Shown here piece by piece: positions 13,543 through 34,750 of a stretch of DNA of 35,078 bases (the first letter of the stretch is position 1; the number at the start of each line of letters is the position of its first letter). The position numbers and the translations under genes were made by a program. Under the pieces are notes generated by a model, which saw only the letters and a list, made by a program, of their open reading frames with translations, was not told the origin of the DNA and did not search any database. Origin of the DNA: a virus; IMG/VR virus record IMGVR_UViG_3300025168_000287, positions 1 to 35,078 of that record; one strand, 5' to 3'.

Positions 13543-13551
13543 AGTTTAATT

Positions 13552-14470: not shown

Positions 14471-14472
14471 AA

Positions 14473-15507
14473 TTAAAATATTACATAATTAATTCCTACA
14501 CTAAAGTTGTGCCATTTACGATTCCAATACTTATTATATTTACCTTCTACAAATACACCTAAACTTTTATTAAATCTATATCCATATATAAGTCCTGCAG
14601 AATAATCTAACCACTGCCCATTGTTGAACTTATAGTAAGAGTATTCATTGTTTGTATTTATGTGATAAGGCATTAAGTTACCCCAGCTGTGAAACCAGAA
14701 ATCTTTTGTAAAATGGTAGTAGTCAAATCCAACTACTGCAGAGTACTCTACTATACTAGATAATTTATTTCTTTCAGCTTCTACATATTCATCTATTACT
14801 TCAGGGATAACAACTTCTTCCCACACTTCTTGACTAGTTGCAACTACTTCTCCATTGGGTGCTAAATATTGTCCATCTAGTGTTATATCGTATCCCTCTT
14901 GAAGTGCCAAGTATGTATAGTGTAATGTCCCATTGTCCAGCACCCAATCTGCCAGGGGGTCAAAACCGTATGGTTCTGCAAGACGTTGAACAGCTCCTAC
15001 ATTAAAAGATAACTTACCTTCTTTTATTTGTAATCTAAATCTTTCAGATGCCTCAAAGTATTTTATATCAGCGAAACCATCTTCTAAGTACTCTACTTTA
15101 CTAACCCACTTATCTGCAACGTATCTTATAAAGTGATGCTGGTTTGTGTAGTTAATACCTAAGCGTCTTACAAAATCAGCTTCAAATAAATATTCGAAAC
15201 CATCAACTCTACCGATTGTCGCGGCATCAGAATAAGAATTTTCTGTACCATTATAAAAAGTGTTGGCTCTATTTTCATATCCAAATCTTTTTATTTTTCT
15301 AATACCAATAGAAAACGCATAATCAAATGGAGTTTTAATTATATCTTCTTCTAATGTACCTGATGTTACAGACCATATCTGATCATCAGATAATGATGTT
15401 CCACCATTAACTGCTGCATAAAATGTAGAGTACTTAAATATTTTATTAAGAGCCTGAGCATTCCCTAAAAAAGGAATCAATAATAATATTAGTAATAACT
15501 TTTTCAT
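14473..15507 (-). CDS. Exported protein, putative outer-membrane beta-barrel
   Basis: A 344-aa protein with a signal peptide (MKKLLLILLLIPFLGNAQ, cut after about A17). The mature chain is rich in alternating hydrophobic/polar strands with many Tyr, Trp and Phe, such as FDYAFSIGIRKIKRF, YSAGLIYGYRF, LGVFVEGKYNKYW and the terminal WHNFSVGINYVIF. It ends in Phe, like many outer-membrane beta-barrels. A Glu-rich region (about 228-247) may be an extracellular loop. It would be placed in the host outer membrane late in infection, where it could alter receptors, block superinfection or help lysis. It overlaps the T9SS-tagged gene upstream by 4 nt. The barrel is inferred from pattern, not from a recognised family. 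Confidence 0.7.
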   Translation of the reverse strand: MKKLLLILLLIPFLGNAQALNKIFKYSTFYAAVNGGTSLSDDQIWSVTSGTLEEDIIKTPFDYAFSIGIRKIKRFGYENRANTFYNGTENSYSDAATIGRVDGFEYLFEADFVRRLGINYTNQHHFIRYVADKWVSKVEYLEDGFADIKYFEASERFRLQIKEGKLSFNVGAVQRLAEPYGFDPLADWVLDNGTLHYTYLALQEGYDITLDGQYLAPNGEVVATSQEVWEEVVIPEVIDEYVEAERNKLSSIVEYSAVVGFDYYHFTKDFWFHSWGNLMPYHINTNNEYSYYKFNNGQWLDYSAGLIYGYRFNKSLGVFVEGKYNKYWNRKWHNFSVGINYVIF

Positions 15508-17747
15508 CTCTTTAATACTTTTTTGTTACTAGTCATTCCTTCGTATGTAACACTAAAATTGTATACACCTGCAGGTAACAATCCTACATCTAACTGATTT
15601 AATCCTTCTTTAGTTTGAGACTCTTTAACTTGTATTACAAGTTTACCTGTAACATCATACACCTCTATGTTCACAGGACCGTTTGTTAATACGTTTAATA
15701 CATCCCCCATAGGATTAGGATATATAACTACATCATTACCTCTAAGTAAATCTCTAGTATCTAATGGGCTATCCCAGCTACAACTCCAGTAAAGTTGTTG
15801 ACATTTCTCATCCCAATCATTATTACAACAGTAAGGGTCTACCATAATTACCCAAGCATAGCACGTATCATTTAACCAATAAGGATCTCCTGGCTCCCCA
15901 ACACAACCAGCATCATATAAACACTCAGCTTCTGTATTTGCAAATATGTCATAGTTAAATGCTGTTACGTCCATACACCCTTCGATTATCTCAAGACAAT
16001 CTCCTTCTGTGTTAGCTATAGGATCGTAATTAAATGCTGTAGAATCCATACATCCAAATACAACTGGTATACAACTGAAATCTTCCGTATTAGCTTCTTC
16101 ATTATAATTGAAAGCTTCTGGATCTGTACAACCAAGAACTGTCGTGAAACAAGCTCCCTCTAGTTCTACATTAGCTATAGGATCATAGTTATCTGCAAGA
16201 GGATCCATGCAGCCAAAATAAAGACAACTTTCGTCAGCACTATTAGCTAAAAAGTTATAATTCCAAGCTGAATCATCCATGCAACCATAGACTACAGCTT
16301 CACAACTTCCATCATCTACATTAGCGATAGAGTCGTAGTTAAATGCAAAGGGCGAGGTACAACCTTCTACAATCTCTATGCAGCTATCATCAGAGGTATT
16401 AGCTTCAGGATTGTAATTTAGTGATTGTTCATCCAAACACCCGTATACTGTAGGAACACAATAATCACCACAAAAAGGTAGAGCACTATATACATTCCAA
16501 AAAGGCGGCTCGTAAGGCTGTAAAGCTCCAGCTCCGTTATCTGCAAATGGATAGGCACCACCCTGTAAGGTGATAATATCATGTGAGTTTATTAATGTAA
16601 ATGAGTTATGCATAGTCTGGAAAGCGACTTCTGCAGGAGGAGTTTGTGGACTAGCTATTTCAAAGTAATATACTTTAACAGCTTTATCTGTCTCTAATAC
16701 TATATCAAATTCTTGAGAGTATTCTCCAGGGCCCATAGTATATGTACCTAGAATACTATCTTCTTGTACTACACCTATGTAGCAATCACCCCAACCGTCA
16801 CCACCGTCATCTTCTATAATAAGAGTGTAGTTACATGTAGGTATGATTTCATTTAGTGTAGCTTGTGGGTTGTAGTTAAATGCATCTGGATTTACACATC
16901 CTAATGTATGAAGTGTTTCACAGCTACCATCATCAAGGTTAGCTTGGAAGTCAAACTCTACGTAAGTATTATTAGTGCATCCTTCTATAGCAGGTATGTC
17001 ACACTGCTGTATCCACATTGGGCCTGAGTAAGTTGCTCCGCCAAAGTTAGGTTCAGACAAAGCCCATAAAGTATCTAAACTCCCACAAGGTTGCAAATCT
17101 CCAAGTACTACTATATTGCCATCAGAACCTCCGTATAAAGAACCAGCAAGTCCATCTCCGTAAGTATCACTTAGTATTATCTCAACACCAGACTCAGGTA
17201 TACATACATCGTATATTATAGTTTGATTAGCTTGTGCATACGTATATTCACCAGCTACTACATTGTCAACGGGTTGCCCGTTAGATAAGTCAGTTATTAT
17301 CCAACCAGTCTCACCTGGAAACTGATCAAGAGTTAGCTGCATAATAATTTTGGTCTCTCCGTCAGAGCAACTCACTCCAACACAGCTGTTATCATCAGCT
17401 TCCGCCCAAGGATTAAAGTTAGGAGCTTCTGAGTCTGTACATCCAAATACAGGAAACTCACATGAGCCGTCATCTAAGTTAGCTTCAGGAACATAGTTTA
17501 AAGCTAACATATTCATACAACCTAGTACAATCTCTACAGTCTCGCAATCGCCTTCGTCGTAGTTAAACTCTTCACAGTTAAAGTTAATAGCGTTACCATT
17601 CCAAGCATAAGCACCATCGTCACACCAACCGTCACCAACCCAGTTGACAACCCCTGATGCATCGGTACCATTACAATCAACAAATAAAGTATCTTGAGCA
17701 TTTGCTGTTAAACTAAATAATAATAATATATAAAGAAGCTTCCTCAT
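15504..17747 (-). CDS. Secreted Cys-rich repeat protein with type IX secretion sorting domain
   Basis: A 747-aa protein. A signal peptide (residues 1-18, ending ANAQ) is followed by an LNR (Notch-like) module at C25-C68, with WVGDGWCDDG and NYDEGDC. Then come eleven GC(T/M)DxxAxNYNxxAxxDDGSC-type repeats, seven of them in tandem. Between them are SDTYGDGLAGS and EDDGGDGWGDC stretches like Bacteroidota acidic beta domains, and a VDPYCCNNDWDEKCQ module. The last 76 residues (672-747: VVIYPNPMGDVLNV, VEVYD-like strand, GLLPAGVY, KKVLKR) are a type A Por/T9SS C-terminal sorting domain. The protein should cross the inner membrane by Sec, then be secreted or anchored on the cell surface by the host T9SS. 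It sits between membrane/lysis genes. Being secreted, it is unlikely to be a virion part; receptor masking or surface modification is possible. Confidence 0.88.
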   Translation of the reverse strand: MRKLLYILLLFSLTANAQDTLFVDCNGTDASGVVNWVGDGWCDDGAYAWNGNAINFNCEEFNYDEGDCETVEIVLGCMNMLALNYVPEANLDDGSCEFPVFGCTDSEAPNFNPWAEADDNSCVGVSCSDGETKIIMQLTLDQFPGETGWIITDLSNGQPVDNVVAGEYTYAQANQTIIYDVCIPESGVEIILSDTYGDGLAGSLYGGSDGNIVVLGDLQPCGSLDTLWALSEPNFGGATYSGPMWIQQCDIPAIEGCTNNTYVEFDFQANLDDGSCETLHTLGCVNPDAFNYNPQATLNEIIPTCNYTLIIEDDGGDGWGDCYIGVVQEDSILGTYTMGPGEYSQEFDIVLETDKAVKVYYFEIASPQTPPAEVAFQTMHNSFTLINSHDIITLQGGAYPFADNGAGALQPYEPPFWNVYSALPFCGDYCVPTVYGCLDEQSLNYNPEANTSDDSCIEIVEGCTSPFAFNYDSIANVDDGSCEAVVYGCMDDSAWNYNFLANSADESCLYFGCMDPLADNYDPIANVELEGACFTTVLGCTDPEAFNYNEEANTEDFSCIPVVFGCMDSTAFNYDPIANTEGDCLEIIEGCMDVTAFNYDIFANTEAECLYDAGCVGEPGDPYWLNDTCYAWVIMVDPYCCNNDWDEKCQQLYWSCSWDSPLDTRDLLRGNDVVIYPNPMGDVLNVLTNGPVNIEVYDVTGKLVIQVKESQTKEGLNQLDVGLLPAGVYNFSVTYEGMTSNKKVLKR
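15921..16442 (-). repeat. Seven tandem GCxDxxAxNYNxxAxxDDGSC protein repeats
   Basis: Inside the 747-aa gene, repeats 5 to 11 lie nearly head to tail, with a period of about 23-26 codons. Each begins GC(M/T/L)D or GCTS, has (A/S)xNYD/N in the middle and ends in (D/E)xxC. The DNA copies have diverged, so this is an old protein-level repeat and not a recent tandem duplication. Single or scattered copies also occur in the 2718-aa and 1221-aa proteins. Confidence 0.85.
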
Positions 17748-17962
17748 TTTTTAGCAAATTTTTCTGCACCGCTTATACCAAATGAACCAAGAACAACCCA
17801 TACAAATGAGTTGTAAACGTATTCGTTAATTACTAAATCTGAGCCTACCCAACCTGTCACTAGATCGGCCACCATTATAATGCACATTATAGCAAATGCT
17901 ATAAAACCAACAATGGCTTTCTCATTCCAATTATTGTCGTTCTTGAATATCTCCATTATCAT
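17744..17962 (-). CDS. Small two-TM protein, possible second holin
   Basis: About 72 aa from ATG at 17962 (or 70 aa from ATG at 17956). The frame is open up to 18040, but that longer form would overlap almost all of the upstream 48-aa gene, so a downstream start is preferred. After a polar start (EIFKNDNNWNEK) come two hydrophobic segments, AIVGFIAFAIMCIIMVADLV and YVYNSFVWVVLGSFGI, and a basic end (AEKFAKK). This fits a small holin or membrane protein common in Bacteroidota phages. Its stop overlaps the start of the T9SS-tagged gene by 4 nt. A holin role is possible, but a clearer 3TM-type holin is present at 12692. Confidence 0.7.
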   Translation of the reverse strand: MIMEIFKNDNNWNEKAIVGFIAFAIMCIIMVADLVTGWVGSDLVINEYVYNSFVWVVLGSFGISGAEKFAKK

Positions 17963-18077
17963 CTTTATTAAATTTCTTTTTTCTATTATATTTCTTTTTA
18001 TTTTTCTGAATCTTAGGAGCTGTTGCTTCCCAAATTTCATCTGGTGTTAAGTTCACCCATTTATAATTCTTACTCAT
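17931..18077 (-). CDS. Small Lys-rich protein, unknown function
   Basis: A 48-aa ORF (MSKNYKWVNLTPDEIWEATA, then a Lys/Arg/Asn-rich tail). It has one of the few convincing Shine-Dalgarno-like sequences in the window and starts two bases after the stop of the 104-aa gene (TAATATG). Its 3' end overlaps the start of the two-TM gene in another frame. The first 25 residues look folded or helical; the rest is highly basic and could bind nucleic acid. The function is unknown. The start context and tight spacing make it a likely real gene despite its length. Confidence 0.6.
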   Translation of the reverse strand: MSKNYKWVNLTPDEIWEATAPKIQKNKKKYNRKKKFNKDDNGDIQERQ

Positions 18078-18078
18078 A

Positions 18079-18393
18079 TTATCTCCCTCTAGTAAAAGTT
18101 AGGAGGTGAGCCCCTCTTGAGACTATATTATTAGTCATGTCTCTAAGAGAAAAAATGTATTTTGTATTACCTGCATCATTTTCCCATTTAATTAAGTCGC
18201 TACCTTTTCTATATGTAAGAGTTCCATCTGCTACACTTAAACTTAAAGCAGAGCATGTAACTTTACAGTTACCACTAGTAGATGCTGCGTTAGAATAGAA
18301 TGTTCCAAACGCTTTTCTATTACGTCCTTGCCGCTTACCTTCTTTCATTTTAGAAGTTCCTCCAGCATGACTATTTCCTAGACGCATCCCCAT
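18079..18393 (-). CDS. Small phage protein, unknown (possible virion accessory)
   Basis: A 104-aa protein. Residues 1-30 are basic and Gly/Arg/Lys-rich (MGMRLGNSHAGGTSKMKEGK), probably flexible. Residues 40-104 look like a small beta domain (CKVTCSALSLSVADGTLTYR, SDLIKWENDAGNTKYIF, AHLLTFTRGR) with a CxxxC pair. No signal peptide or TM segment. Its start overlaps the stop of the 107-aa gene by one base, so the pair is probably cotranslated. The location just after the giant adhesin-like gene suggests a virion or assembly part, but I do not recognise the family. Confidence 0.65.
   Translation of the reverse strand: MGMRLGNSHAGGTSKMKEGKRQGRNRKAFGTFYSNAASTSGNCKVTCSALSLSVADGTLTYRKGSDLIKWENDAGNTKYIFSLRDMTNNIVSRGAHLLTFTRGR
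18082..18088 (-). promoter_or_regulatory. Ribosome binding site of the 48-aa gene
   Basis: On the minus strand the sequence is AGGGAGA followed by four bases and ATG at 18077. It lies within the last codons of the 104-aa gene. Most other genes here have only A/T-rich leaders, as is usual in Bacteroidota, so this site helps support the small gene. Confidence 0.5.
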
Positions 18394-18716
18394 TACTCTT
18401 TGTGTCTACGGTAAAACATTACTAAGCAATCTGTAGCATCAGATTCTATAACAGCATTAGTTATAGGAGCGTATAATATATCTCCTGGAGCTAATTTAAC
18501 TCCATCTAAAGCATCACCTTCAGCAGTTGTTAAGGTTGTAAAGTGAGCGCCTGTTGTTCCTGTATTATCTACTTTTATAGCTACCCAGTTTCCTGCTACT
18601 GTTTGATCTCCTGATATACCATTTACCAAATCAAGCCCATTTAAACCAAAGTCTAAATTTTCTTTACGCTGGTTACCCTTAGCAATTACATTTATTAAAT
18701 CTCTTAATCTATCCAT
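18393..18716 (-). CDS. Small beta-rich phage protein, unknown (possible decoration or fibre part)
   Basis: A 107-aa protein. The first 20 residues are a helix (MDRLRDLINVIAKGNQRKEN) and the rest is predicted beta-rich: NWVAIKVDNTGTTGAHFTTL, then LAPGDILYAPITNAVIES, then DCLVMFYRRHKE. The 'GDILYAPIT' segment resembles small jelly-roll or decoration-like domains. It follows the 2718-aa gene by 10 bases and overlaps the 104-aa gene. No catalytic motif is seen. It is most likely a minor virion protein; this is an inference from context. Confidence 0.65.
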   Translation of the reverse strand: MDRLRDLINVIAKGNQRKENLDFGLNGLDLVNGISGDQTVAGNWVAIKVDNTGTTGAHFTTLTTAEGDALDGVKLAPGDILYAPITNAVIESDATDCLVMFYRRHKE

Positions 18717-18726
18717 TTTATTTTAT

Positions 18727-21700
18727 TTAACACGTTTTACAATTACAAAGATCAGCTAACTTCTCTTTGTACATTTCTATTTTAACTGAATTCTTTTCTT
18801 TTAAAGATTCTTTGTAAGACTGATACACTGTATATATCTGTAGAGCTTTTGTAGACTCTCTACTATCACATTGTAATGTATCAATATTAAGTAAGGCGTC
18901 TTTAACACAATCGTATAAAGCAGCATCTATACATGTACCATTATCTATTCCTGCATTTTCATTATAATTTGCAGCTTCTGAATCAGTACATCCTGGTTCT
19001 AACAACTCTAAAGTAAAAGGCTCAAAGTAAGAATCATTGTATAAAGATTTAGTTTTAAGAATTTTACCTTGTTCATCTATAATTCTATATATCAACATAT
19101 TTTTAGAAATAGCTTTTACACCTAAAACAGTGGTGTCAGATAATTTGAAGTTTTCTACTCTAACTTCTCCGTTACCTATTCCTCCTATAAGATCAACAAG
19201 TCTTTCTCCTGTAGTAATATTATATAATATAAATGAAGTCTCATCATAAGAGTCTGTTGGAGATTCCTCAGTTAATATTTCTACAGTGAAATCAGTGAAT
19301 TCTTTAACATCTTTTTCCACTGATCTAGTACATCCTGTAACACTAATAGTAGTGGCATCACATCCTGCTGTACAATCTGTAGTTCCTAACTTTAATATAG
19401 CAGAGCCGTCAGGGATTATTGAAGATCCAAAAGTTTGTGTATCTAATGATCCATAATCAAGCTGCCATAAAATTGTATCATTTTTACTAATAGTAAATTT
19501 TCCTTTTAACCATTCGTTATTAGTATTAAATGCTATAGGTACAAACCCAGCACAATCTCCTACACTTCTAATAGTTTGTATTGTTCTTTTAGTGCCAGAA
19601 GAAGTTATAACATGTCTTACTTCACTTTCATCTTGAATTATTTTTCCTGCTTTAGTATAAATAATATATTCTACATCTGGAAGAGCGTCTCCTGTATAAT
19701 CAGTAGTTATAGTATAAGTACCTTGAGTAGTGTCTGTTTCTGTTTCTTCAATTTGTAGAAGATTTAAACATAAACTGTCATCTATTTCCCAAAGCCCTTC
19801 ATTTGTATCTACTTCATGGAATTCTAAATAATTAGGATCAGAACAATATGGAGTGGGTTCTTCAGGGAAAGAACAGAAATTATCATCGCCATACTCTTGG
19901 CATTCTCCTAACTCTGGTGTATAATTAATTGCATCAGAGTTTCCACATACTTGAGCGTAATCGTTCCCATTAAGAAGACAGTCATCCGTGCAAGCACAAT
20001 TAGCAGCTATCGTATATGTAGTTGTGAGTGGAGGGGTTGTAGCGGTCCCTTCTTGGTTAATAACAACTAAAGGATTTCCTGATGCTATACTTATCATATC
20101 AGCAGAAGTTATCTCTGGATACTGTGTATATACAGCTCCATTTTGAGTTTCTCCTTCTGGACAAACATCACATATATAAATATCTGTATTAACTGCATTC
20201 TCTTGTGCAGCAAAAAGAGCTGAAAGATCTACTCCTTCAGGTATCTCTGAAATAGTACCATCTGCGTCTAACCTCATAGTTACTTTATACACATGGTAAT
20301 TAGAGTATGTAGCACTAACAGGTTCAAAGGTCCCGTTTGGATGAATAACAGTGGCAGTTATCTCAGGAGTCCCTTCTACTAATTCTGACTCTAACACCTC
20401 TGCACTTCCATCTTCTTTAGATACACTTTGGATATTACTACTCATATACGGACCAAAGAAGTTATTTGCAATATTACTTACAGTGGTATTCAAATCTCCT
20501 TCTAATCTAAAATAGAAGTTTACAGTTTTACCTGAAGCAGTTGCAACATCATTACTACTAATACTTTCAGGATTTTGAGTGCTAACACCTGTTATTAAGT
20601 CTACACCACCTAGGGTAGGAGTGTAAGAATAAGTTATTTCTGCATTATCAATAGCTCTATCTAATATTAAGATAGGATTACTAGCACTAATTACTTGGCA
20701 TTTACTAGTAAAAATAGGATTATCTCTAGTTACATTAGTAGTATTACCATCTACTCCTAATTGATATTCAGTTACAATTGTTGGATTATTAGGGCCTACT
20801 ATATCTCCATAGTGTTGTATCTCTACATCAGAGTGATGAGTTATAACACTAGCCATATTACCACTAGATACTAAAGTTCCTCCATCATCAATTAATGGAT
20901 AAGCATCTGGATTAATTATGTTATAATATTCACAACAGTCTTCACAGCCTATAGTTGCAGTATTATCGTAATTAAATGCCTCTGCGTCTGTACATCCTGT
21001 ACAGTCAGAATTATCTCCGTCACATACTCCACATCCGTCTGCCACTAAAGTTCCTGGACAATTTCCACCACAATCTGCAGTAGGAGGAGTACCATCTATA
21101 GTATCTGGACAACCGCAATCTTCTCCCTCTTCTGTACCACTAGGTACTTCATCATAAGGGCCATCACAGAAACCACAAGCGTCATTAACTAACCCGTCGC
21201 ATCCACCAGCACAATCTAACTCTGTAGCTGTACCCGCAAGTACACAAGAATTTACACAAGTGTCAAATACGTAGCCAGTACAGCACCCATCTTCATTTGG
21301 CTCTATCTCTCCACTACAAGTACATTTAGTACTACCTTGGTCGTTAGTGTAAAATCCTGTACTTTCAACAAAAGTATATGTTCCTGCTTCTACCCCACAA
21401 TTATTACAGGCATCCCAAAGTTTAGGGGTTCCATCAGGATTATTAGTACATTCAGCACATATTTCACCTTCTCCAGTTCCTGTAGTATGAGGAATAATAG
21501 CCTCTCCATTAAGACAGCCACATCCTAAATCTTCTACTCCACAATCGCAAAATCCATCTGGCAGATCACCACACTCACATTCGTATATAGGCTCTCCATC
21601 AGAAGGGTAATAACAGTTATTACAATCATCTAATATTCTTATTTCTCCAGTTAGATTTCCATCTGAATCATAAGAAATACAGTCAAGGTTGCATTCATCT

Positions 21701-24700
21701 TGAAATCCATCACACCCATCTATTCCTAAAGAATCTTCTATAGTAGTCCATAAAGGATAACCTCCATCTCCGTTTCCAGCGGCTGTCACGGCATTAGGGC
21801 ACATTAACTGTAATATTTCAGGATTATAGAACCCATCACCATCACCGTCAAAGTAGTGCACTTCTGCTTGATGGTTACATAATAATTCACCATTATCATC
21901 ATAACATTCTTTACCTGGCTGTAAGATAGACTCTTGATTACAATCGCAGTAAGGTTCACCTTCATTATCAGTGGGTACTCCACAATCACAGAAGGCCGTA
22001 GAATCTATAACAGTTCCGTAACAATCACAGCCCTCTTCTACTGGGGTACCTACACAGTCACATACTCCATAAGTATTCAGCAGATATATTTTATCTGAAG
22101 GATTAAGTGTACCACTATCATGTCTAGCCCATCTATCACAATCGCAATATGTATTATCTTTGATAATAGTAGTACCAGGATCGTTATCACAATCTGTACA
22201 GTTTATATCTCCTTCTGCGACAGCACTTGGGGTTAGACCTTCACTTCCATCACACTCACATCCATTTGTAGGAAAAATACATAACTCACCTAAATGTTCG
22301 TCAGGATATAAGTCACTTCCTTCAGGTACTCCAGAATTTTCTACAGCGTTACAAGGCTGTACAAGAACCTGAGAATCGAAGCATCCGTATATTGTACACG
22401 CACTATAATCTGGATAGCAAGGGTCTTCAATGCCTTCACATCCTGTAGCTGTATTACCGTTTCCTAAATCAGTTCCTTCAGGGCATACATAACAATCAGT
22501 GTCTTGAAAAGCTTCTCCTGTATAACAAGTGCCACAATTAGTTATACCAATATAAGGTATAGCGCCATCGCATCCTCCATCACATCTATTTATTATGTCT
22601 GCATCATCAGGTATAAGGCAGCTGTTGTCGTCTATAGTTGCATATTCGTTATAATTACAAGCATTAATATTCATACAGCCAGGTATAGCTACTGTAACAT
22701 TATCATCAGGTGTAGGGCCTTGCTGTGACATACCTCCAATCTCTCCTTTAATATTATACATTATAGGACCAAACCCTGGCTCTATATTATTATCAGGTGC
22801 TATATTAATAGCATAGTATGGGGATATTGAGGTAGGCCCATATATTCTAGATATACTTTCTCCAGAATTTGTTTCTATATATATACGCCCATTAGGAAGA
22901 GATATTAAATTTTCAGCTGCTTTAATATCTTGACTACCATCATAAGTGTAAAGCCCAGCATCATCTTGTGCAAAATCTGATGAAAAGCCTTCTAGCGCAT
23001 CACTAGGAAGTATTTCAACATGAGATAGAGACTGACTATTAGCACCAAAGTACTTAAGACTTAGAGTTTCGTACTTATCTCCAATTAATATAAATGTATT
23101 AGAGGCAAGAGCAGGCTCTAAAGCTACTATTTTTTTAGGGTTATTTTTATTATAATTTACACTTGCGGCTTCTACAGATAAGACTTTTGTTAATGCTCTA
23201 GTAGTTATATTGTATTCAAATACTGTACTTCCTATAGTAATTCCAGCGTCATCAAGTTCATTCATGTTAAGAATGCTAGATGGAGGTAGTATAGAAAGGG
23301 TTAGCATTAGAAATGGGGATTGCCCGTCATGTCTAAACTTTAAAATAGAGTCATCGTAATTGTAAATAAACGATCCCATAGCAGCTCCGAGCTGTCCGAG
23401 CAAATCAACTTCATTTAACGTACCTTCTTCAGACTCTGTAAAATCATCTCCAGTAATTTCAAGCTTAGTGTAAGTTATTACCCCTGCATCTTGGGTGGCT
23501 ACATATATAGTAGTCATATTAGATACTCCTGAATTAACAATACAGCTATCAATATAGCTTTCTGTAGGCATAGTATACAATAAAGTTTCATTGAGAGTTC
23601 CAGAAGTTGAATCTAAAGATACAGCTCCGTCAGAATAATGATTATAAAGTAGTTTAAGTTTGTACACACCCTCTTCACCCGCAGTAATATTTTTTGTATA
23701 TATAATATTATAAAAAAAGCTTTCTGGATAAGAAAAAGACTCAACTGATATTAATTTATTCACTCCGTCAAGAACTTCTCCTTCCCGTACACCTCCTACT
23801 AGATAAGTCACTACAATTTGACTATCTATAAGAGACACTCTTGCTAGGATACTTCCTTGTACAGAAAGTAATCTTTCGTGAGAAGCCTCTCCATCTGGCA
23901 TATTTGGAGCAATAGTATCTACAAGAATTTCACCATCTACTACATTTGCAAGGTCTCCTATATTGTTTATGTCTACAGCTATTTTATTATCTTGATCGTC
24001 TACACCTATAATAAATTGTTCTTGATCTCCTATAGGTATACTATCTGTGATTTCTACATCATCTGCTAGATTTAATTGATACTCAATTGAGACGTCATTC
24101 CACTGTGCATCCTCGAATCCTTCATCTAAATAATTTAAGAACACTCCATCCTCTGTGCCTTTTTTTAGTAAATCTATTACGGGTTTACCAGGAACAAAGT
24201 CTATAACGCCCTCTAGAGACTTGGTAAAAAACTCAGTAAAATATAATAAAACATCCACTGACCATTGTAGATCAGGACTTGGAACCATTATATAGTCACT
24301 AGATCCTTTAGAGTAAAAATACAGGAAACCATCTGCTCCGACTTGAACTGAAGATAATTCCCCATCAAATGGATTAGGAATACTTCTAGCATCCTCTAAA
24401 ATGGAATCTACAGAAGTACCGAGTTTATAAACTACTATATGCCTATCTCCACTTTCTGGATGTTCTACAATAGCATATACAAAATTATCCATCGGAGATA
24501 TAGCAATATCTATCATTCTAAATCCTCCTTCAGTAAATTCCTCGTCATTATATCCTAACAAGGAATTATCTCCTGCAGGTATATGAAGCTCATGACCATT
24601 TGCCACACCAGTAAGTCTACCAGATAAATTATCCATAGTAAGTAGGAGCCAGCCATACTCTACCATAAGAATAGCGTACTTAATTCCTAGTCCTACTCCT

Positions 24701-26883
24701 GGAATAACACTACTCATAAGTATATCAATTTCATAAGGGTTTTCGTAGGTATAGACAACACCCTCCTCAAGATAATCGCTAGGGTCGGCGTTTACAAAAT
24801 TATCTTCTACAAAAGTTCTATAGAAAGTACCCCCCTCTCGAAGTCTCTTAGATATAACTAACTTATATCTTCCTTTCAATCTACTTATTCGATCAGAATT
24901 AAGTGTACTAGCCTGAAAGGAAGTTCCTATACTTTCTCCACCAGTATAATCCGCATATACTACTGCTAAGTCTCTGAATATTGCGTCAGTTGTATAGTTA
25001 TCTGGAACAGATTCTCCTGCCAAATATTGAGTATACTCGAAATATGTTAAAGACTTCTCAAAATCACTTGTACCCTCAAAAGATTGTGTGCTCTTCTGCC
25101 ACTTTCTACTACTTAAATTAATAAGCCCCATAGACTCTGTAGCATTGTCTCCTGTGAAAGAAAAATTACCACTAGTAGCCATAGGGTAGACAATTGCCTT
25201 TATATCTGAATTTAAATAAAAATCTTTATCCTGCTCAGCATAGCCTGGGGTAAGAGGTTCTCCCCACATACGAACTTCCTCGTCTTCAGGCACGAAAGGT
25301 CCTCTACACACAACATAGCTATCTTGGAAAGGTGATATGTATATATGCTTAACTTCTGGGTAAGATTTAAGCAGAGAAAAAGGGAATTCAGTCTCCGCTG
25401 CACCTTCAGGTAGATGTAAAACACTACTAACAAAACTATCTCTTCCAAAAACATGAGAATCAGAAAAGGTATCAGGATCAGTCATATCGAAACTAGTTGC
25501 ATCGCTTATCCCTCCCGCTGTTCCATATTCATTTATAGGACCAAAATTATAAAAGCCATTAATCCTAGTAGAGGTATCTGCAAGTTTTTCTCCCTTCCCT
25601 GAGAAGATGTTTCCCATAGTAGCGATACCGTAACCACCTATATTACCTAAATTCATACCGAAAGCATCTACGCTATTATCACAGTCTATATCTTCATAAT
25701 CAGAGGGGGTTGAACTTAAGTCAATAAGACTTCCCAGAGAATTAACTCCAAACATAAAAATGTCTAATTTCAAAGATTCTCCCTCCTTACGTACTGATTG
25801 CGTATAATAGGATCCTAATGAATTATTGTGACCATATAATTCATTTATGGTAGTAATGTAATTCCCCAGTCTATCTGATACGATTGTTACTCTATTAGTA
25901 GTATAGGGCGCGTCAATTCCTAGAAGTCCTGCCGTTAAATTAAGAATCTTATCGCCTTCCAAAGAAAGTACTACAGTGCTATTTGCCTGATATAGTACCA
26001 ATCCCCCCACAGAACTCAGTAGTTGGGGAGGAGTAGAGTAAGGAGATTCTAAAGGCACAATCCCGTCTTTAGTATACTTATAATAAGCACCATCACCATT
26101 TAAAGCAATAATCTGATGAGGGGTATTGCTTGACATTCTAGTAGGTGTGTACCTATTAGAAGAAGTTGATATAACAGTGTCATCTATGTTTATACACGAC
26201 CCATCATTTGTATTAGCTAGCGGATTATAGTTTGAGGCATTTGAATTTGTACACCCATACACTCTAGCTACAGAAGTAGCTGTACTCCCAAAAATCTTTT
26301 TAAAGTGAGGAGTTAAAAGTTTATACTTATGAAGTACTGGTTCTGTTATAAGGCCATTTCTGTCAGGAGAAAGACCATTAGATAAGTGGAAACTTTTATT
26401 TAAAGTAATAGAACTCATAGGAGTATCTCCTAACTGATTACTTAATCCTAAAAATTGCCCTACCCCATAAACAGCATATCGTAATACATCATCTACATTA
26501 GGAATTAAAGAAGATCCCCATGAAGCAGTTGAGTTGAATATTATATTTTTTGTATCTACTTTAATCTTAGGACCAGAGGTAGAACATTTAAAAATAAGAT
26601 CTGCAGACTCTACACTAGAAAGCTCAAACTTAACAGTAAGACTTCCTTTAAAGTGTACTTTGTTACTATAGAGATTAGATATAAAGTCTTCCCATTGAAA
26701 TAAGGAATTCTCAATATCTACTTTAAAATGCTCTAATGACAATGTTCTGGAAGAAATATTTTGTAACGAATCTTCGTCATAAAAATACTTAATAGTTAAA
26801 ACAGTATTTGTACCAGCTTTAACTGTATTAACAGCCTCTAGTAAAGGGAAAAATATTCCCGAATCGCTTATCTTATAAATCAC
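18727..26883 (-). CDS. Giant modular host-interaction protein: decayed matrixin-like N-terminus, propeller-like middle, Cys-rich region
   Basis: A 2718-aa protein without signal peptide, so probably a virion part. Residues about 60-200 follow a matrixin (M10) pattern: ADLIF at 94-98, NIIFNSTASW at 113-122, then RYAVYGVGQFLGLSN at 135-149 where HExxHxxGxxH would be, and TPMSS at 154-158 in the Met-turn place. The zinc ligands are replaced by Y139, Q143 and N149. A GC-D repeat follows (209-230). Residues about 240-1390 are beta-rich, with propeller-like blades. Residues about 1400-1985 are packed with Cys motifs such as CGVCDGDNSDC and a DGDGDG calcium-type loop. Further beta domains follow, then a last GC-D repeat and a helical end closing in CNCKTC. 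It lies between the 498-aa fibre and small virion-like genes. An adhesin or tail appendage is the best reading. Confidence 0.8.
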   Translation of the reverse strand: MIYKISDSGIFFPLLEAVNTVKAGTNTVLTIKYFYDEDSLQNISSRTLSLEHFKVDIENSLFQWEDFISNLYSNKVHFKGSLTVKFELSSVESADLIFKCSTSGPKIKVDTKNIIFNSTASWGSSLIPNVDDVLRYAVYGVGQFLGLSNQLGDTPMSSITLNKSFHLSNGLSPDRNGLITEPVLHKYKLLTPHFKKIFGSTATSVARVYGCTNSNASNYNPLANTNDGSCINIDDTVISTSSNRYTPTRMSSNTPHQIIALNGDGAYYKYTKDGIVPLESPYSTPPQLLSSVGGLVLYQANSTVVLSLEGDKILNLTAGLLGIDAPYTTNRVTIVSDRLGNYITTINELYGHNNSLGSYYTQSVRKEGESLKLDIFMFGVNSLGSLIDLSSTPSDYEDIDCDNSVDAFGMNLGNIGGYGIATMGNIFSGKGEKLADTSTRINGFYNFGPINEYGTAGGISDATSFDMTDPDTFSDSHVFGRDSFVSSVLHLPEGAAETEFPFSLLKSYPEVKHIYISPFQDSYVVCRGPFVPEDEEVRMWGEPLTPGYAEQDKDFYLNSDIKAIVYPMATSGNFSFTGDNATESMGLINLSSRKWQKSTQSFEGTSDFEKSLTYFEYTQYLAGESVPDNYTTDAIFRDLAVVYADYTGGESIGTSFQASTLNSDRISRLKGRYKLVISKRLREGGTFYRTFVEDNFVNADPSDYLEEGVVYTYENPYEIDILMSSVIPGVGLGIKYAILMVEYGWLLLTMDNLSGRLTGVANGHELHIPAGDNSLLGYNDEEFTEGGFRMIDIAISPMDNFVYAIVEHPESGDRHIVVYKLGTSVDSILEDARSIPNPFDGELSSVQVGADGFLYFYSKGSSDYIMVPSPDLQWSVDVLLYFTEFFTKSLEGVIDFVPGKPVIDLLKKGTEDGVFLNYLDEGFEDAQWNDVSIEYQLNLADDVEITDSIPIGDQEQFIIGVDDQDNKIAVDINNIGDLANVVDGEILVDTIAPNMPDGEASHERLLSVQGSILARVSLIDSQIVVTYLVGGVREGEVLDGVNKLISVESFSYPESFFYNIIYTKNITAGEEGVYKLKLLYNHYSDGAVSLDSTSGTLNETLLYTMPTESYIDSCIVNSGVSNMTTIYVATQDAGVITYTKLEITGDDFTESEEGTLNEVDLLGQLGAAMGSFIYNYDDSILKFRHDGQSPFLMLTLSILPPSSILNMNELDDAGITIGSTVFEYNITTRALTKVLSVEAASVNYNKNNPKKIVALEPALASNTFILIGDKYETLSLKYFGANSQSLSHVEILPSDALEGFSSDFAQDDAGLYTYDGSQDIKAAENLISLPNGRIYIETNSGESISRIYGPTSISPYYAINIAPDNNIEPGFGPIMYNIKGEIGGMSQQGPTPDDNVTVAIPGCMNINACNYNEYATIDDNSCLIPDDADIINRCDGGCDGAIPYIGITNCGTCYTGEAFQDTDCYVCPEGTDLGNGNTATGCEGIEDPCYPDYSACTIYGCFDSQVLVQPCNAVENSGVPEGSDLYPDEHLGELCIFPTNGCECDGSEGLTPSAVAEGDINCTDCDNDPGTTIIKDNTYCDCDRWARHDSGTLNPSDKIYLLNTYGVCDCVGTPVEEGCDCYGTVIDSTAFCDCGVPTDNEGEPYCDCNQESILQPGKECYDDNGELLCNHQAEVHYFDGDGDGFYNPEILQLMCPNAVTAAGNGDGGYPLWTTIEDSLGIDGCDGFQDECNLDCISYDSDGNLTGEIRILDDCNNCYYPSDGEPIYECECGDLPDGFCDCGVEDLGCGCLNGEAIIPHTTGTGEGEICAECTNNPDGTPKLWDACNNCGVEAGTYTFVESTGFYTNDQGSTKCTCSGEIEPNEDGCCTGYVFDTCVNSCVLAGTATELDCAGGCDGLVNDACGFCDGPYDEVPSGTEEGEDCGCPDTIDGTPPTADCGGNCPGTLVADGCGVCDGDNSDCTGCTDAEAFNYDNTATIGCEDCCEYYNIINPDAYPLIDDGGTLVSSGNMASVITHHSDVEIQHYGDIVGPNNPTIVTEYQLGVDGNTTNVTRDNPIFTSKCQVISASNPILILDRAIDNAEITYSYTPTLGGVDLITGVSTQNPESISSNDVATASGKTVNFYFRLEGDLNTTVSNIANNFFGPYMSSNIQSVSKEDGSAEVLESELVEGTPEITATVIHPNGTFEPVSATYSNYHVYKVTMRLDADGTISEIPEGVDLSALFAAQENAVNTDIYICDVCPEGETQNGAVYTQYPEITSADMISIASGNPLVVINQEGTATTPPLTTTYTIAANCACTDDCLLNGNDYAQVCGNSDAINYTPELGECQEYGDDNFCSFPEEPTPYCSDPNYLEFHEVDTNEGLWEIDDSLCLNLLQIEETETDTTQGTYTITTDYTGDALPDVEYIIYTKAGKIIQDESEVRHVITSSGTKRTIQTIRSVGDCAGFVPIAFNTNNEWLKGKFTISKNDTILWQLDYGSLDTQTFGSSIIPDGSAILKLGTTDCTAGCDATTISVTGCTRSVEKDVKEFTDFTVEILTEESPTDSYDETSFILYNITTGERLVDLIGGIGNGEVRVENFKLSDTTVLGVKAISKNMLIYRIIDEQGKILKTKSLYNDSYFEPFTLELLEPGCTDSEAANYNENAGIDNGTCIDAALYDCVKDALLNIDTLQCDSRESTKALQIYTVYQSYKESLKEKNSVKIEMYKEKLADLCNCKTC

Positions 26884-29139: not shown

Positions 29140-32100
29140 TTATAATTTTACAAATCTACAAATATTTTCAATATTTTTTTGTATTTTAACGAATTTTTTT
29201 GCTGTATCCTCTAAAGAGTCTAGAACTTTAACAGCTTTAGATAATTGGTCTTTAGTATACAATCTTTCTCCAGAAAGCTTTAAGCTTCCTGAGAATGCTA
29301 TTCCTCCACTTCTCACACAATAAACTCCTGAATAAGAGTCGCCTGAAGCAGTAAAGTAAATTCCTCCAGATGTATATAAATTAGCAGTTAGAGTGTACCT
29401 AGCATCAGGGCATATTAGTTCATAATGCTCTTCTCCTAGTGCTTGTATCTCTTCTGTTGTAAAAGTTTCTCCTCCTGCGCACCCTACTATTTCTAACTCT
29501 CCATATATACATTCTTCAGTATTAATACTGTAATGAAATCCTCCCCCCGCACATCCTACAGGAGCTTGAGGGTAGTCCTCTGAATACATAATGGTACTTA
29601 TAGTTTCTCCTGGAGGAAACAAATCTAAAATCTCTGGCTCGACTTGGTTACAAGTTAGTATATCAGGATCTATGCATACGTTTATTGTCTCAGTAGGTAA
29701 TATACAATTATCGTCTCCTGCATACATACAAGATCCGTCATTAAAAACTGCATCTGAATCATAGTTAACTGCTGTAGGATCTATACATCCTTGCGGCTGC
29801 GTACTATAATATTCTACATAAGCTGTTATTTCTTCTAAGGTATTTTGCATATCTGGAGAAGTAGCGTAAGAAGATTTTAAATTTGCTTCTCTAGAAAATT
29901 CTGTAATTCTACCCCACTTTCCTCTTCCAGAGTCTAGAATAGCTTCTATTCTAAAAATACCTTCAACACTAAACAAAACCCTTTTAACATTCATTGCAGT
30001 TGTCTCATGTGTAAAATCACCTTCCTCAGAAAATATTAAACTACTTCTGCCATAGTTCATAGTATTATGCATGAAGTTTACATTAAACTCTCCTACAGAT
30101 GTGTCTTCACCATATAAAGGATTTGTAGGTGAATTTTCTACGATAACTAAATCCATTGCAAACCTAGAAGGATATACAACCTGCGTAGGAACATCTACTT
30201 TGAAAGGGTTATAATAAGTATCTGCTTCGTCTGAGCTCCCTAAAAGAGTTCTAGTTAATAACTCAGAGAATGAAACTTCTCCTGTAGTTATTACTCTAGG
30301 AGTATCTGATAATAAATCATCTTTTGTGTAAAAATCTTCTGATTCAGAGTCGAAGTCTAGTCCGAACTCTTCAGGTACTCCTTGGAATGGAGTAAACCCG
30401 TAATATCCAAATAAAGGCATATGCCCATTATTTCCTACATTTAAAGAATCAGTTAAATCTATTTTAGGCTTATCAGTATTGTATAAATGGTAGTCTTCTG
30501 GGTCGTCTAGAAACTCCGTCTTAAGAGCTAGAAAACTAAAGTAATTTGTATTCCAATAACCAATTGAAGAAAGTACCTCAGCTAAAGTATCTCTACTAAA
30601 AGGCTCCCCATCTTTAGTATAATTCTGAGTTGCGTATAAACAAGGACAAAGAGGGTTACCTTCATCGTCAAACTCATCATAAGCTTTATCTGTAGGCCAG
30701 TTATCAGGATAGGCAGGATAGTCTTCATCTAGCCAATTAAAATTTATATGCCAAAACTCATCAAGCACATCTGAAGGCGTGCCATCAGGATTAGGCACAC
30801 AAAAAGGTACTCTAGTTATTGTGTCTAAAGGGTTACCTATATCTGTTACCATACTCATAGAAGTTATGGATGTAATTTCCTGATATGCAACGGTACCTAC
30901 TTTAGTAATCTCTACTTTATTTGTGAACTGAGAAAGTGGTATAGAATTAGGCTCATCTGACTGTAATGTCACAGGAATAGTAACACTCCCTCCTCCGCCA
31001 CTGAAAAACTGCTTAACATTTATATCTCTACTGCCATCCGCTTCTATAATTAAATTACGAGTTTCATCAAATGCTAGATTAGTATACCCATGTACATAAT
31101 TTAAATCTTCCTGGTATAATGTTAGAGTTCCTTCAGTTCCGTGCCACATTAATTCTATATATCCCGCAGCATCATTATATAGAATGCCACCGCCGACAAG
31201 ATGAACACCGCTTAAATCAATTACATGAGTATTCTCTACTATTTTATTAAATACTAGAGATGCATTTCCTTGAGAATTTAGTTGTGTTGTATCTACACTA
31301 CCTGACCAGAAGCTAGGTAAATTTAAAAATTGTTCAAATAATTTTCTTCTTAAATCTAGTAGATCCGCTCCTAGAGGATTAGAAATATCTTTTATTTCTT
31401 TACTTATTGATCTTGTATCAAGATTTGTTGTAGTTGCAAGTCCTACTTTAGTAGTTATTTGTCCGTTATCTTTAATCTTATTAAAAAATACATCTAAAAA
31501 AGTAGCTTCATCGTTAGACATAACATTTAATGACTGTTGCGCAGGGGTAGCATCCTCTTCTAGAGGGAAGTTCATACTAGGAACAGTAATATTTTCCATA
31601 TCTGTTATAGACCCTCCCTGAAAAGTATGAGACAACCCTAGTGAGTGCCCAAACTCATGTAGTAAAATTTGAGCATACTTATAGGAATCCTCATCAAACC
31701 GATCAGCATCATCCATGTAAATATTTCCATTATAAGAGTGGCTTGGAGATGGTCCAAATCCTTTAAAAAGAGAACTCTGGTGAATACCACCTACGGTAGT
31801 CCACACATTCATAACAGGTAAAGTATTTCCCCATAACCCAAGTTCCTCAGCAAAATCAGCAAGCGATGCATGGTCTACAGTTCCTGATACATTACCTAAA
31901 GGGGAATTATACTCCTCTGTACAGTTACCTTCAGGATGATAACAGTATGCTTCATCACAATTTATTATAGGGCTTTCTACAGACTCTCCGTGTAACGTAA
32001 TTAAGGTGCAAGGATTTAATTTACTTAAATCGTGTGTAAATATAGCTCCCTGAGTACCGCATTCTATTAACCCTCCTAAATCATTAATATATTTAGTTTG

Positions 32101-32805
32101 CACGTAGTCGGCATATTCTTGAGTTTCTTCTAATAACTCTTCAGCTTCAGCGGGAGTATTTCCCTCTGCTATTAAGGCATCATACTGTAAGTCTTTAGCT
32201 GCTTCTGCAGTAGTATATTCACTCGAAGCTGCAGCTTGAGCATTTTCTATAGAAGTGTTAGTAAAATTAAAACTAGCTATTCCTTCGAGGGTTTGTTCTC
32301 CTGAATAATAAGATGAATTTATATTTAAAAACTTAGACACAAATGTACTAGGTAAATGAGTGGCTATCTTAAATCTTATCTTACTCTCTACCCCATGATC
32401 TGGATGATCTCTATGAGCCCCTATAGTACCTGAAGGTACATGTGTACCGTCTAGAAAAGAATTTAAGTAGTCTACTACCTCTGCGTAAAACACATCTGTA
32501 TACGTAGTTTCTGTGTCCGTTGATGGCGTTGAGGGTATAAACTGATGAAAAACTAAAGGTATATATATTAAATCTTCTGGCGCATAAGTTATATATGGGG
32601 GAGTTGGAGTTGGAGTTGGAGTAATTCTTGTATTTTTATTTTGATAATAGTCATCTAAACGCTGTTTAGCATCCACAGCTTCACTCCTAAGCATTTCCAA
32701 ATCTCCGTCAGTAAGAGGTATATTAGTGCTAGGATAAGAATGTAAACACCCTCCTATAATTTCTTCTTCAGTAGTTCTATTGTTATTTTTAAATTTATTA
32801 CCCAT
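29140..32805 (-). CDS. Pappalysin-like (M43) metallopeptidase with large insertion, virion-associated
   Basis: A 1221-aa protein. After a charged start and a TPTPTPTPP linker (62-70), a pappalysin-like N-terminal part begins (YIPLVFHQFI at 81-90). Residues 329-395 follow the M43 pattern: LPVMNVWTTVGG, then NIYMDD, then HEFGHSLGLSHTF at 383-395, with ligands H383, H387, H393 and catalytic E384. A D-T-P motif (LLSDTPRV at 831-838) and a Met-turn-like NTMNYG at 914-919 with a following FTHE come about 430 residues later, so the catalytic domain seems split by an insertion. Alternatively LNVMSNDE at 426-433 is the Met-turn. A GC-D repeat (1006-1026), Cys-rich strands and a helical tail end the protein. 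No signal peptide. It overlaps the decayed paralogue gene (TAATG at 32805). It may cut host surface proteins or the capsule during adsorption. Confidence 0.85.
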   Translation of the reverse strand: MGNKFKNNNRTTEEEIIGGCLHSYPSTNIPLTDGDLEMLRSEAVDAKQRLDDYYQNKNTRITPTPTPTPPYITYAPEDLIYIPLVFHQFIPSTPSTDTETTYTDVFYAEVVDYLNSFLDGTHVPSGTIGAHRDHPDHGVESKIRFKIATHLPSTFVSKFLNINSSYYSGEQTLEGIASFNFTNTSIENAQAAASSEYTTAEAAKDLQYDALIAEGNTPAEAEELLEETQEYADYVQTKYINDLGGLIECGTQGAIFTHDLSKLNPCTLITLHGESVESPIINCDEAYCYHPEGNCTEEYNSPLGNVSGTVDHASLADFAEELGLWGNTLPVMNVWTTVGGIHQSSLFKGFGPSPSHSYNGNIYMDDADRFDEDSYKYAQILLHEFGHSLGLSHTFQGGSITDMENITVPSMNFPLEEDATPAQQSLNVMSNDEATFLDVFFNKIKDNGQITTKVGLATTTNLDTRSISKEIKDISNPLGADLLDLRRKLFEQFLNLPSFWSGSVDTTQLNSQGNASLVFNKIVENTHVIDLSGVHLVGGGILYNDAAGYIELMWHGTEGTLTLYQEDLNYVHGYTNLAFDETRNLIIEADGSRDINVKQFFSGGGGSVTIPVTLQSDEPNSIPLSQFTNKVEITKVGTVAYQEITSITSMSMVTDIGNPLDTITRVPFCVPNPDGTPSDVLDEFWHINFNWLDEDYPAYPDNWPTDKAYDEFDDEGNPLCPCLYATQNYTKDGEPFSRDTLAEVLSSIGYWNTNYFSFLALKTEFLDDPEDYHLYNTDKPKIDLTDSLNVGNNGHMPLFGYYGFTPFQGVPEEFGLDFDSESEDFYTKDDLLSDTPRVITTGEVSFSELLTRTLLGSSDEADTYYNPFKVDVPTQVVYPSRFAMDLVIVENSPTNPLYGEDTSVGEFNVNFMHNTMNYGRSSLIFSEEGDFTHETTAMNVKRVLFSVEGIFRIEAILDSGRGKWGRITEFSREANLKSSYATSPDMQNTLEEITAYVEYYSTQPQGCIDPTAVNYDSDAVFNDGSCMYAGDDNCILPTETINVCIDPDILTCNQVEPEILDLFPPGETISTIMYSEDYPQAPVGCAGGGFHYSINTEECIYGELEIVGCAGGETFTTEEIQALGEEHYELICPDARYTLTANLYTSGGIYFTASGDSYSGVYCVRSGGIAFSGSLKLSGERLYTKDQLSKAVKVLDSLEDTAKKFVKIQKNIENICRFVKL

Positions 32806-34196
32806 TACTTATAAACTATATGATTACACAATAGCTCTATTTTAGTTTTGATAGAGTTAAATTTAGTAGATTCTTCTGAATAGTTTTTATTACTAGAAGA
32901 CTTTTTTAAATACACTGCACGAAGATTATCAGGGTAGTCTTCGCAATAAATATCAGAATAAAGAGAATAACTCATATACTCAGAAAAAGTATCCTTCATT
33001 TGTTTTAAAACCGTGCCATTAGTTTCAAACCCGCTTCTCATTATATTAACTTGTTCATCGCTAAATATTATAGTAACATCTTGACTATCTAATATAAAAT
33101 TCATAGGGTTAGCAATAACTGGATTAAATATTTCTTCAGAACTAAGTTCGTAACAATCTATATCCCCCCATAGTACAATATCTTTTTCTATAGTAGAAAA
33201 ATAATTTGGAGTAATTCTTGGAGGCAAATCATCACAACAATCTCCTTCTCCTCCTGTTAAAATACATCCTGAAGTACTGCAAGTTCCTTCTGGAAAAGGA
33301 GTTTGCATTAATTCTAAACTAGATATACCTAAAGGCAGTAATCCAAACATACTCCCTATAATGTGTTTATATAAAGGTTGAGGAGATTCGACAACTAACT
33401 CTTCTTCTGAAGGAAAAGTTATATTAGGATACCAATTCATAGAACTCATACCTAACTGCATAGCAACATCAGCCCCTAAATCATCTCTAATAATTTCTCT
33501 TAACCCATAATAAGGTAGTATTGTATAGTAAGATTTAACATCTGCTACCGCAGGGTGAATTCCTGTCATATACGCCCAAGTTTCAGAAGTATCATTTATA
33601 TTAGTTGCATTTAATTTGTTAGCTATAACAACAGTAAAAACATTATTAGTGTCTACGCGCTCTGCTACTGCTTCATCTATAACATTTTTATTAACTCCTA
33701 CTATAGGGTTACCGTCAACATCTTGGTCTCCTATAGCTATACCATCCCTGTAATAAGTAAACTCTCTAGTTATATTTCCAAAACCTCCTTCTTCTAAAAG
33801 ACCAAAATATGTTGTCTCAGAGGTAAAGTCTTGAGTATCTATAAGTATACTCCCAGGATAATCTATAATATCCCCATCTACTTTAGGCTTATCTGATAAA
33901 TAAAATTTAATATTACTCTCAATCATGGCAATATTAAATCCATCTAGTAATCTTTGAGAAGCTAAAAATGCTTGTTCTGGCGTTATTTCTAAAACAGGAG
34001 CTGACGTAGCTTGATCATTGCTAGGCTCATGTAGATATACAAATACTATAGGAATCTTTATAGTAGAATCTACATCACTAGCTCCTCCAGTTACTTCAGA
34101 AGAATAGTTAGAAAGTAAATCTGCCTGTTCTCCATTAAGTAGAGAATCTACAAGTTCATCTACAAATCCAGATATTTTACCATGTCTAAGTATCAT
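32805..34196 (-). CDS. Decayed pappalysin-like protein (pseudo-metallopeptidase)
   Basis: A 463-aa protein without signal peptide. Its landmarks run in the order of an M43 peptidase: an N-terminal strand KIPIVFVYLHE at 47-57 with the helix TPEQAFLASQRLLDGFN; then KHIIGSMFGLLPLG at 277-290 in place of HExxHxxGxxH; GDCCDDLPP at 318-326 in place of GDxxxDTP; then NPMNFILD at 363-370 and FSDEQVNIM at 378-386 in place of the Met-turn and 'FTxxQxxxM'. Of the zinc-site residues only H278 remains; the Glu and the other two His are I279, S282 and P288. It should be inactive and may instead bind a target. It precedes and is coupled to the intact M43-like gene. The C-terminus is helical with one Cys. 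Confidence 0.8.
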   Translation of the reverse strand: MILRHGKISGFVDELVDSLLNGEQADLLSNYSSEVTGGASDVDSTIKIPIVFVYLHEPSNDQATSAPVLEITPEQAFLASQRLLDGFNIAMIESNIKFYLSDKPKVDGDIIDYPGSILIDTQDFTSETTYFGLLEEGGFGNITREFTYYRDGIAIGDQDVDGNPIVGVNKNVIDEAVAERVDTNNVFTVVIANKLNATNINDTSETWAYMTGIHPAVADVKSYYTILPYYGLREIIRDDLGADVAMQLGMSSMNWYPNITFPSEEELVVESPQPLYKHIIGSMFGLLPLGISSLELMQTPFPEGTCSTSGCILTGGEGDCCDDLPPRITPNYFSTIEKDIVLWGDIDCYELSSEEIFNPVIANPMNFILDSQDVTIIFSDEQVNIMRSGFETNGTVLKQMKDTFSEYMSYSLYSDIYCEDYPDNLRAVYLKKSSSNKNYSEESTKFNSIKTKIELLCNHIVYK

Positions 34197-34750
34197 ACGT
34201 TCTCTAAACTTTCTAATAAACTTTTAGCTAATAATACTTTATCTAAATCAGAATCATCACAGTCTTCACATTGTAAATTAATAGAAGTTAAGGCTTTAGA
34301 TACTAGTTTAGATGTCATACAAGTATTTTTAAAAACAAACTCTTTGTGCCCATACTCATTTGTAATATCAGTGGAGTCAGATACTCTAATACTGATTTGA
34401 TATAAATTATCTTCTACAACTTCAAACCCTTCTATCTCATCCATGATCTCTTGGAGAGTTCTTATAGGTAAAGCTAGTTTGAATTTTTTATAATTATCCT
34501 CAAAAGGTATGTCTGCAAAATTTTGGTATGTATCTAAAGAAAACACTCCTTCAGATGTTACTAATTCTTCTCCCTCATAAAAATATACTTTGACTATAAT
34601 ATATATACTAGTATTATTTTTGTAAGGAATATGATTTAGTTCTCCCCACCCTCCTAAGTTATCCTCAGAATAATTTCCTGTCATATCTTCTATAACAAGA
34701 GTTCTACAATCATTTGTAGTTTGTATATCTAATTTTAAGTCTAAAGCCAT
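34193..34750 (-). CDS. Probable virion protein at the start of the appendage block, unknown
   Basis: A 185-aa protein. It begins with beta-rich LDLKLDIQTTNDCRTLVIED, has a central beta region with TSIYIIVKVYFYEGEELVTS, and ends in a helical tail preceded by CEDC (residues about 160-163). It is the first gene after the strong terminator at 34761-34795 and overlaps the next gene by ATGA at 34193. No signal peptide or catalytic motif. A short leader of about 10 A/T-rich bases precedes the ATG. By position it could be an adaptor between the head or tail and the following appendage proteins. The family is not recognised. Confidence 0.7.
   Translation of the reverse strand: MALDLKLDIQTTNDCRTLVIEDMTGNYSEDNLGGWGELNHIPYKNNTSIYIIVKVYFYEGEELVTSEGVFSLDTYQNFADIPFEDNYKKFKLALPIRTLQEIMDEIEGFEVVEDNLYQISIRVSDSTDITNEYGHKEFVFKNTCMTSKLVSKALTSINLQCEDCDDSDLDKVLLAKSLLESLENV

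Follow-up and report, generated by a model that had tools for sequence, protein, structure and literature searches.

A probable pappalysin homologue without a zinc site, kept beside an active-type metzincin in a crAss-like phage locus

A 463-aa ORF carries the landmarks of the pappalysins (peptidase family M43) and lacks their catalytic residues; does its product belong to that fold, and for what is it kept? The ORF lies on the minus strand of the window, i.e., the whole stretch of DNA analysed (35,078 nucleotides; IMG/VR record IMGVR_UViG_3300025168_000287); it starts with ATG and its reading frame is intact. The following features were assigned:

32805..34196, minus strand: 463-aa protein, read as a pseudo-pappalysin, a catalytically dead homologue of M43-type metzincins (ORF call, profiles, model)
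34143..34196, minus strand: N-terminal segment MILRHGKISGFVDELVDS, second in conservation within the family (family alignment)
34029..34061, minus strand: first core strand IKIPIVFVYLH, aligned with M43 IPVxFHV (PDB profile search; second M43 HMM–HMM alignment, score 32.3)
33333..33365, minus strand: degenerate zinc motif HIIGSMFGLLP in place of HExxHxxGxxH (best-conserved 12-aa window of the family)
33219..33245, minus strand: GDCCDDLPP, candidate counterpart of M43 GDxVxDTP (M43 alignment)
33096..33110, minus strand: Met-turn counterpart NPMNF, Met invariant in all six members (M43 and family alignments)
33039..33065, minus strand: C-terminal helix FSDEQVNIM, counterpart of M43 FTxGQxxRM (PDB profile and M43 alignments)
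32823..32894, minus strand: C-terminal 24-aa helical motif (F..I...I..[LI]C), common to the 1221-aa family (HMM–HMM, shuffles)

A preliminary description of this DNA, which named no strand, had listed the landmarks; with the codons checked, all of them were present and in the correct order. Its statement that the catalytic Glu and two of the three zinc His are gone was borne out: in HIIGSMFGLLP, which does not fit the HExxHxxGxxH of active M43 peptidases, the first His is kept, Glu is replaced by Ile, the second His by Ser and the third by Pro.

Relatives were located in IMG/VR via the neighbouring proteins, and a family of six homologues was assembled (window, L002, L005, L006, L008 and L011). 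Its members are 24–38% identical to that of the window, with third codon positions near-saturated; the sole close pair was L006/L007 (1 difference in 1014 bases). No homologue was found in the scan of GTDB genomes, and a degenerate DNA scan for IGxM[FL]GLLP gave, beyond the known members, two short chance ORFs and one locus without such a peptide.

Searches with the window protein alone against Pfam, PHROGs, PDB sequences and INPHARED phages gave nothing usable; none of the six members matched Pfam M43 (PF05572), and no Pfam or PHROG profile names the family. The six-member profile was run against all PDB sequences, and mirolysin (M43) was the top match (E 5e-4) in two colinear stretches, residues 26–104 and 357–408. 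For hhalign, an M43 profile was prepared from 108 bacterial M43 domains, which had been collected by scanning GTDB genomes for a DNA pattern; the family scored 43.0 against it (best of 200 column shuffles, 25.4), and a second colinear N-terminal stretch scored 32.3. The profile–profile match to M43, whose absence the preliminary description had named as the refuting outcome, was thus obtained. HMM–HMM comparison with matrixin (M10) gave no match (score 15.0, E 0.36). GDCCDDLPP and its variants aligned at the GDxVxDTP segment of M43, the T of which is not conserved among the members.

The AlphaFold model of the 463-aa protein was of modest confidence (mean pLDDT 52, pTM 0.57). Foldseek of this model against PDB gave promirolysin (twice), PAPP-A and proulilysin as the first four matches (TM 0.25–0.35); VIA-align gave ulilysin, mirolysin or PAPP-A at all of ranks 1–12, the best match being ulilysin (Z 10.2, 183 aligned residues, 4.1 Å, from a moderate-confidence model). 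Against BFVD no match was significant, a Tupanvirus 'ulilysin' standing third (E 0.25). The family resembles M43 (mirolysin, ulilysin, PAPP-A) in the order of N-terminal strand and helix, the Gly/Leu pattern of the active-site helix, tentatively the GDxxxD(T)P position, the Met-turn Met, the C-terminal F..xQ..hM helix and the predicted fold; it differs in the missing catalytic Glu and second His, in the third His, lost in five of six members, and in an additional C-terminal helix common to the phage partner. The 463-aa protein is very probably a pappalysin homologue without a zinc site.

The zinc-site positions over the six members read H/H/H/N/N/H (first ligand), I/F/N/L/F/S (catalytic Glu), S/S/N/S/S/S (second ligand) and P/P/P/P/H/P (third ligand); catalytic Glu and second His are missing from every member, and none keeps two of the three ligands, so that no zinc site is expected. 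The motif Gly and the Met-turn Met are invariant (6/6). By sequence the family is a putative pseudopeptidase, conserved and without catalytic residues. The 12-residue stretch 277–288, over the dead motif, ranked first in conservation among 452 such stretches (mean pairwise identity 0.64 vs 0.28 overall). Since the dead helix is the most conserved stretch of the protein, decay is argued against; the same helix may serve fold packing, and its conservation therefore speaks against decay more than it marks a binding cleft. ADAM22, in which the partner binds away from the cleft (PMC11266112), is a case to compare: the 463-aa helix also packs the core, and its conservation alone does not indicate a binding cleft. 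A selected binding role, as proposed in the preliminary description, is a reasonable inference; the helix conservation may reflect packing.

The neighbours that bear on the function of the 463-aa protein were the following:

34193..34750, minus strand: conserved 185-aa protein upstream of the 463-aa gene, 51–64% identity across loci, ATGA overlap
29140..32805, minus strand: 1221-aa metzincin with intact zinc site (Pfam M10 3e-7, M43 1.6e-5)
31627..31659, minus strand: intact zinc motif HEFGHSLGLSH of the 1221-aa protein
30052..30066, minus strand: Met-turn NTMNY of the 1221-aa protein, ~520 residues past the zinc motif

The gene order 185-aa protein, 463-type protein and 1221-type metzincin (two copies in L006) was common to the six loci; on contigs of sufficient length a 243-aa protein, a 498-aa fibre-like protein and a 2718-aa protein were also found. 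The 185-aa and 243-aa neighbours had no convincing relatives in PDB. The 463-aa gene overlapped the 1221-aa ORF by one base (TAATG) in the window, L002, L005, L006 and L011, and by 8 bases in L008. The gene had been described as intact and coupled to its active relative; the intact ORF and the overlap hold at six of six loci, and as evidence of coupling the overlap is weakened by the abutting or tight overlaps of most genes across this operon.

The muzzle protein of the window matched Pfam crAss_MUZ (1.5e-181) and the adjoining gene CrAss_Ring_1; among the upstream genes on the related 95-kb contig L006 were those for a P22-like portal, Crass_capsid (6.8e-128), the crAss auxiliary capsid protein and ring protein 3/4, and the L006 capsid protein was 35–38% identical to capsid proteins of gut crAss phages. 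By its muzzle, ring, auxiliary capsid (AuxCP) and capsid Pfam families the window is classed as crAss-like. Because muzzle, ring and capsid families flank the 463-aa gene, it is placed in a late operon of structural genes, with capsid genes on one side and tail genes on the other.

The motif HExxHxxxxxH is kept in all seven copies of the 1221-aa family, which matched M43 by HMM–HMM (probability 96%). The window metzincin has ~430 residues between zinc motif and SDTP segment, and the length of the insert differs among relatives. In L006 the active metzincin gene is duplicated in tandem (11862–15680 and 15680–19387); HExxHxxxxxH is present in both copies and the usual motif Gly in neither. The first Cys of the family falls at residue 18–30 in 7/7 members (window 32746–32748, minus strand) and is a candidate cysteine-switch residue of the N-terminal region; in the dead 463-aa family no N-terminal Cys is conserved.

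Between the 463- and 1221-aa families the C-terminal 24-aa motif scored 26.1 (best of 100 shuffles, 23.5). Their protease domains aligned weakly, in the correct order and without significance outside this motif, so that 'active relative', the earlier term for the neighbour, holds at superfamily level and not in the sense of a simple duplicate. Recent paralogy of the two families was considered and found unsupported outside the C-terminus. The shared motif may be a common docking or assembly element, within what would be an old, superfamily-level relationship.

The best explanation is that a pappalysin-fold metzincin lost its zinc site and would have been kept for a non-catalytic role in a tail or appendage module of a crAss-like phage; it is supported by the M43 homology, the dead site in 6/6 members, helix conservation, synteny, overlap and the shared C-terminal motif. 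The 463-aa protein would be a virion protein, a subunit whose fold serves for binding or as a scaffold; it would most likely assemble with the adjacent active metzincin via the docking site that the shared C-terminal helix suggests, and it may hold or aim the 1221-aa protease at a host-surface protein. MILRHGKISGFVDELVDS (34143..34196, minus strand) is a candidate docking segment. The chances that the protein is such a virion or appendage subunit, serving the active metzincin as a scaffold or partner without catalysis of its own, are judged to be about even.

Fold and helix conserved without catalysis would also suit a tail-appendage adhesin independent of the active neighbour, whose dead cleft holds a host-surface peptide or protein uncut, i.e., a receptor or substrate binder. 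The gene lies within the region that holds tail-fibre and spike genes in Crassvirales (PMC10136315, PMC10172136), where the tail-spike gene region is highly variable across lineages (PMC10136315); the cleft region, however, is the most conserved part of the protein, whereas receptor-binding surfaces usually vary most. This reading is considered unlikely, with an appreciable residual chance.

A regulator or folding partner of the 1221-aa protease, bound to it as a restraint, activator or chaperone like TIMP-like partners and pseudoenzymes elsewhere, is suggested by the position of the 463-aa gene, which at every locus immediately precedes and overlaps the active gene, by the C-terminal motif common to both families and by the Listeria phage-derived metzincin paired with a TIMP-like protein (PMC8235301). 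That pair is alike in that a metzincin associated with a phage is genetically paired with another protein; it is unlike in that its partner is TIMP-like and cleaved, and here the partner is a dead metzincin. L006, however, has one pseudo gene next to two active copies, the 463-aa protein is without inhibitor-like features, and the active family may keep itself latent through the invariant Cys at residue 18–30; regulation is rated as rather unlikely.

An enzyme with another metal site or mechanism is suggested by the first His (kept in 4/6 members) and by Ser in place of the second ligand (5/6), and is very improbable: the family conserves no pair of ligands, two members have Asn instead of the first His, and no conserved residue replaces the catalytic Glu. 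A Ser/His pair as an alternative active site was rejected for want of a conserved His. An unrelated protein with a chance motif resemblance to M43 would agree with the lack of single-sequence and Pfam matches and with the low model confidence, and is contradicted to a similar degree by independent sequence-profile, HMM–HMM and structure searches that converge on the pappalysins with colinear landmarks. A decaying former protease without function, for which the missing catalytic residues speak, is hardly credible: six divergent genomes hold the ORF (434–492 codons) without premature stops, the dead helix is top-conserved, six Cys columns are invariant, and synonymous codons turn over at conserved residues, the Ser at the second ligand position being encoded by AGT in four of the genomes and by TCT in a further one, codon classes not one base change apart. 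The 463-aa protein is almost certainly maintained by selection, and the earlier view that the scaffold is conserved and catalysis lost, by something other than decay, stands on six syntenic intact homologues that lack Glu and second His and have the dead helix as their best-conserved part.

The return to the appendage-subunit reading brings in a second protein of the operon:

26269..26883, minus strand: N-terminal domain of the 2718-aa protein, read as a degenerate metzincin of matrixin (M10) type (profiles)
26437..26469, minus strand: degenerate zinc motif YGVGQFLGLSN of the 2718-aa protein

Its relatives read YAVGSFLGLGD, FAIGFLFGLES and HYIGNLLGLGD at the zinc motif; over four genomes the domain (205 residues) has lost the catalytic Glu and second His in each. 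Matrixin was the sole Pfam family matched (2/4 members, best E 0.0036), and hhalign with the matrixin profile scored 32.5 over 133 columns (shuffle maximum, 17.2). The AlphaFold model of this N-terminus was poor (pLDDT 35), and so the dead-matrixin claim rests on the profiles, by which the 2718-aa protein is taken to begin with a second dead, matrixin-like metzincin. A tail appendage of three metzincin-fold parts, namely the active protease (sometimes duplicated), the dead pappalysin and the dead matrixin joined to the fibre-like 2718-aa protein, is a tentative proposal, somewhat improbable as it stands; if true, the protease fold would be a reusable structural or binding module in the virus particle.

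Among known systems, the M12 pseudopeptidases ADAM11, 22 and 23 have a degraded zinc motif, keep Gly and Met-turn, and are reused for protein binding (PMC11266112); unlike the 463-aa family, they are eukaryotic membrane receptors of another metzincin family (PMC11266112). The words 'M43', 'pappalysin' and 'phage' are absent from the text of that review (PMC11266112). The virion architecture of Crassvirales was described for crAss001 (PMC10172136), whose tail hub and fibre assembly belongs to the same phage order and is alike in that its appendages are encoded close to the genes for capsid, ring and muzzle; some of its tail-fibre proteins are unresolved (PMC10172136), and PDB searches gave no crAss001 chain as a relative of the 463-aa family. 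Literature searches for pappalysin in bacteriophage and for crAss-like phages with metalloprotease and tail gave nothing relevant among the papers covered, most subscription papers lying outside the search. Metzincin pseudopeptidases as such are known from the ADAMs; only their occurrence as a dead pappalysin, conserved within a structural operon of a phage, is provisionally regarded as new. The loss of zinc-binding and catalytic residues in every relative found, with the shape kept, suggests that the phage reuses a protease fold for building or gripping and not as an enzyme; a dead pappalysin with a live metzincin adjoining and a second dead metzincin near would show that viruses, too, put protease folds to new use as structural or binding components. 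Among the appendage proteins of crAss-like phages many are without an assigned function, and a concrete, testable one is proposed here.

A GCTxxxAxNYxxxAxTxDGSC-like cysteine motif was noted in both the 2718-aa (18727–26883, minus strand) and the 1221-aa (29140–32805, minus strand) ORFs; a similar stretch occurs in PDB sequences of macrophage-expressed gene 1 protein. A 747-aa protein of the window (15504–17747, minus strand) has at its C-terminus a sorting domain of type IX secretion (Pfam Por_Secre_tail, 1.4e-11), which points to a Bacteroidota host and a possible use of the host secretion system.
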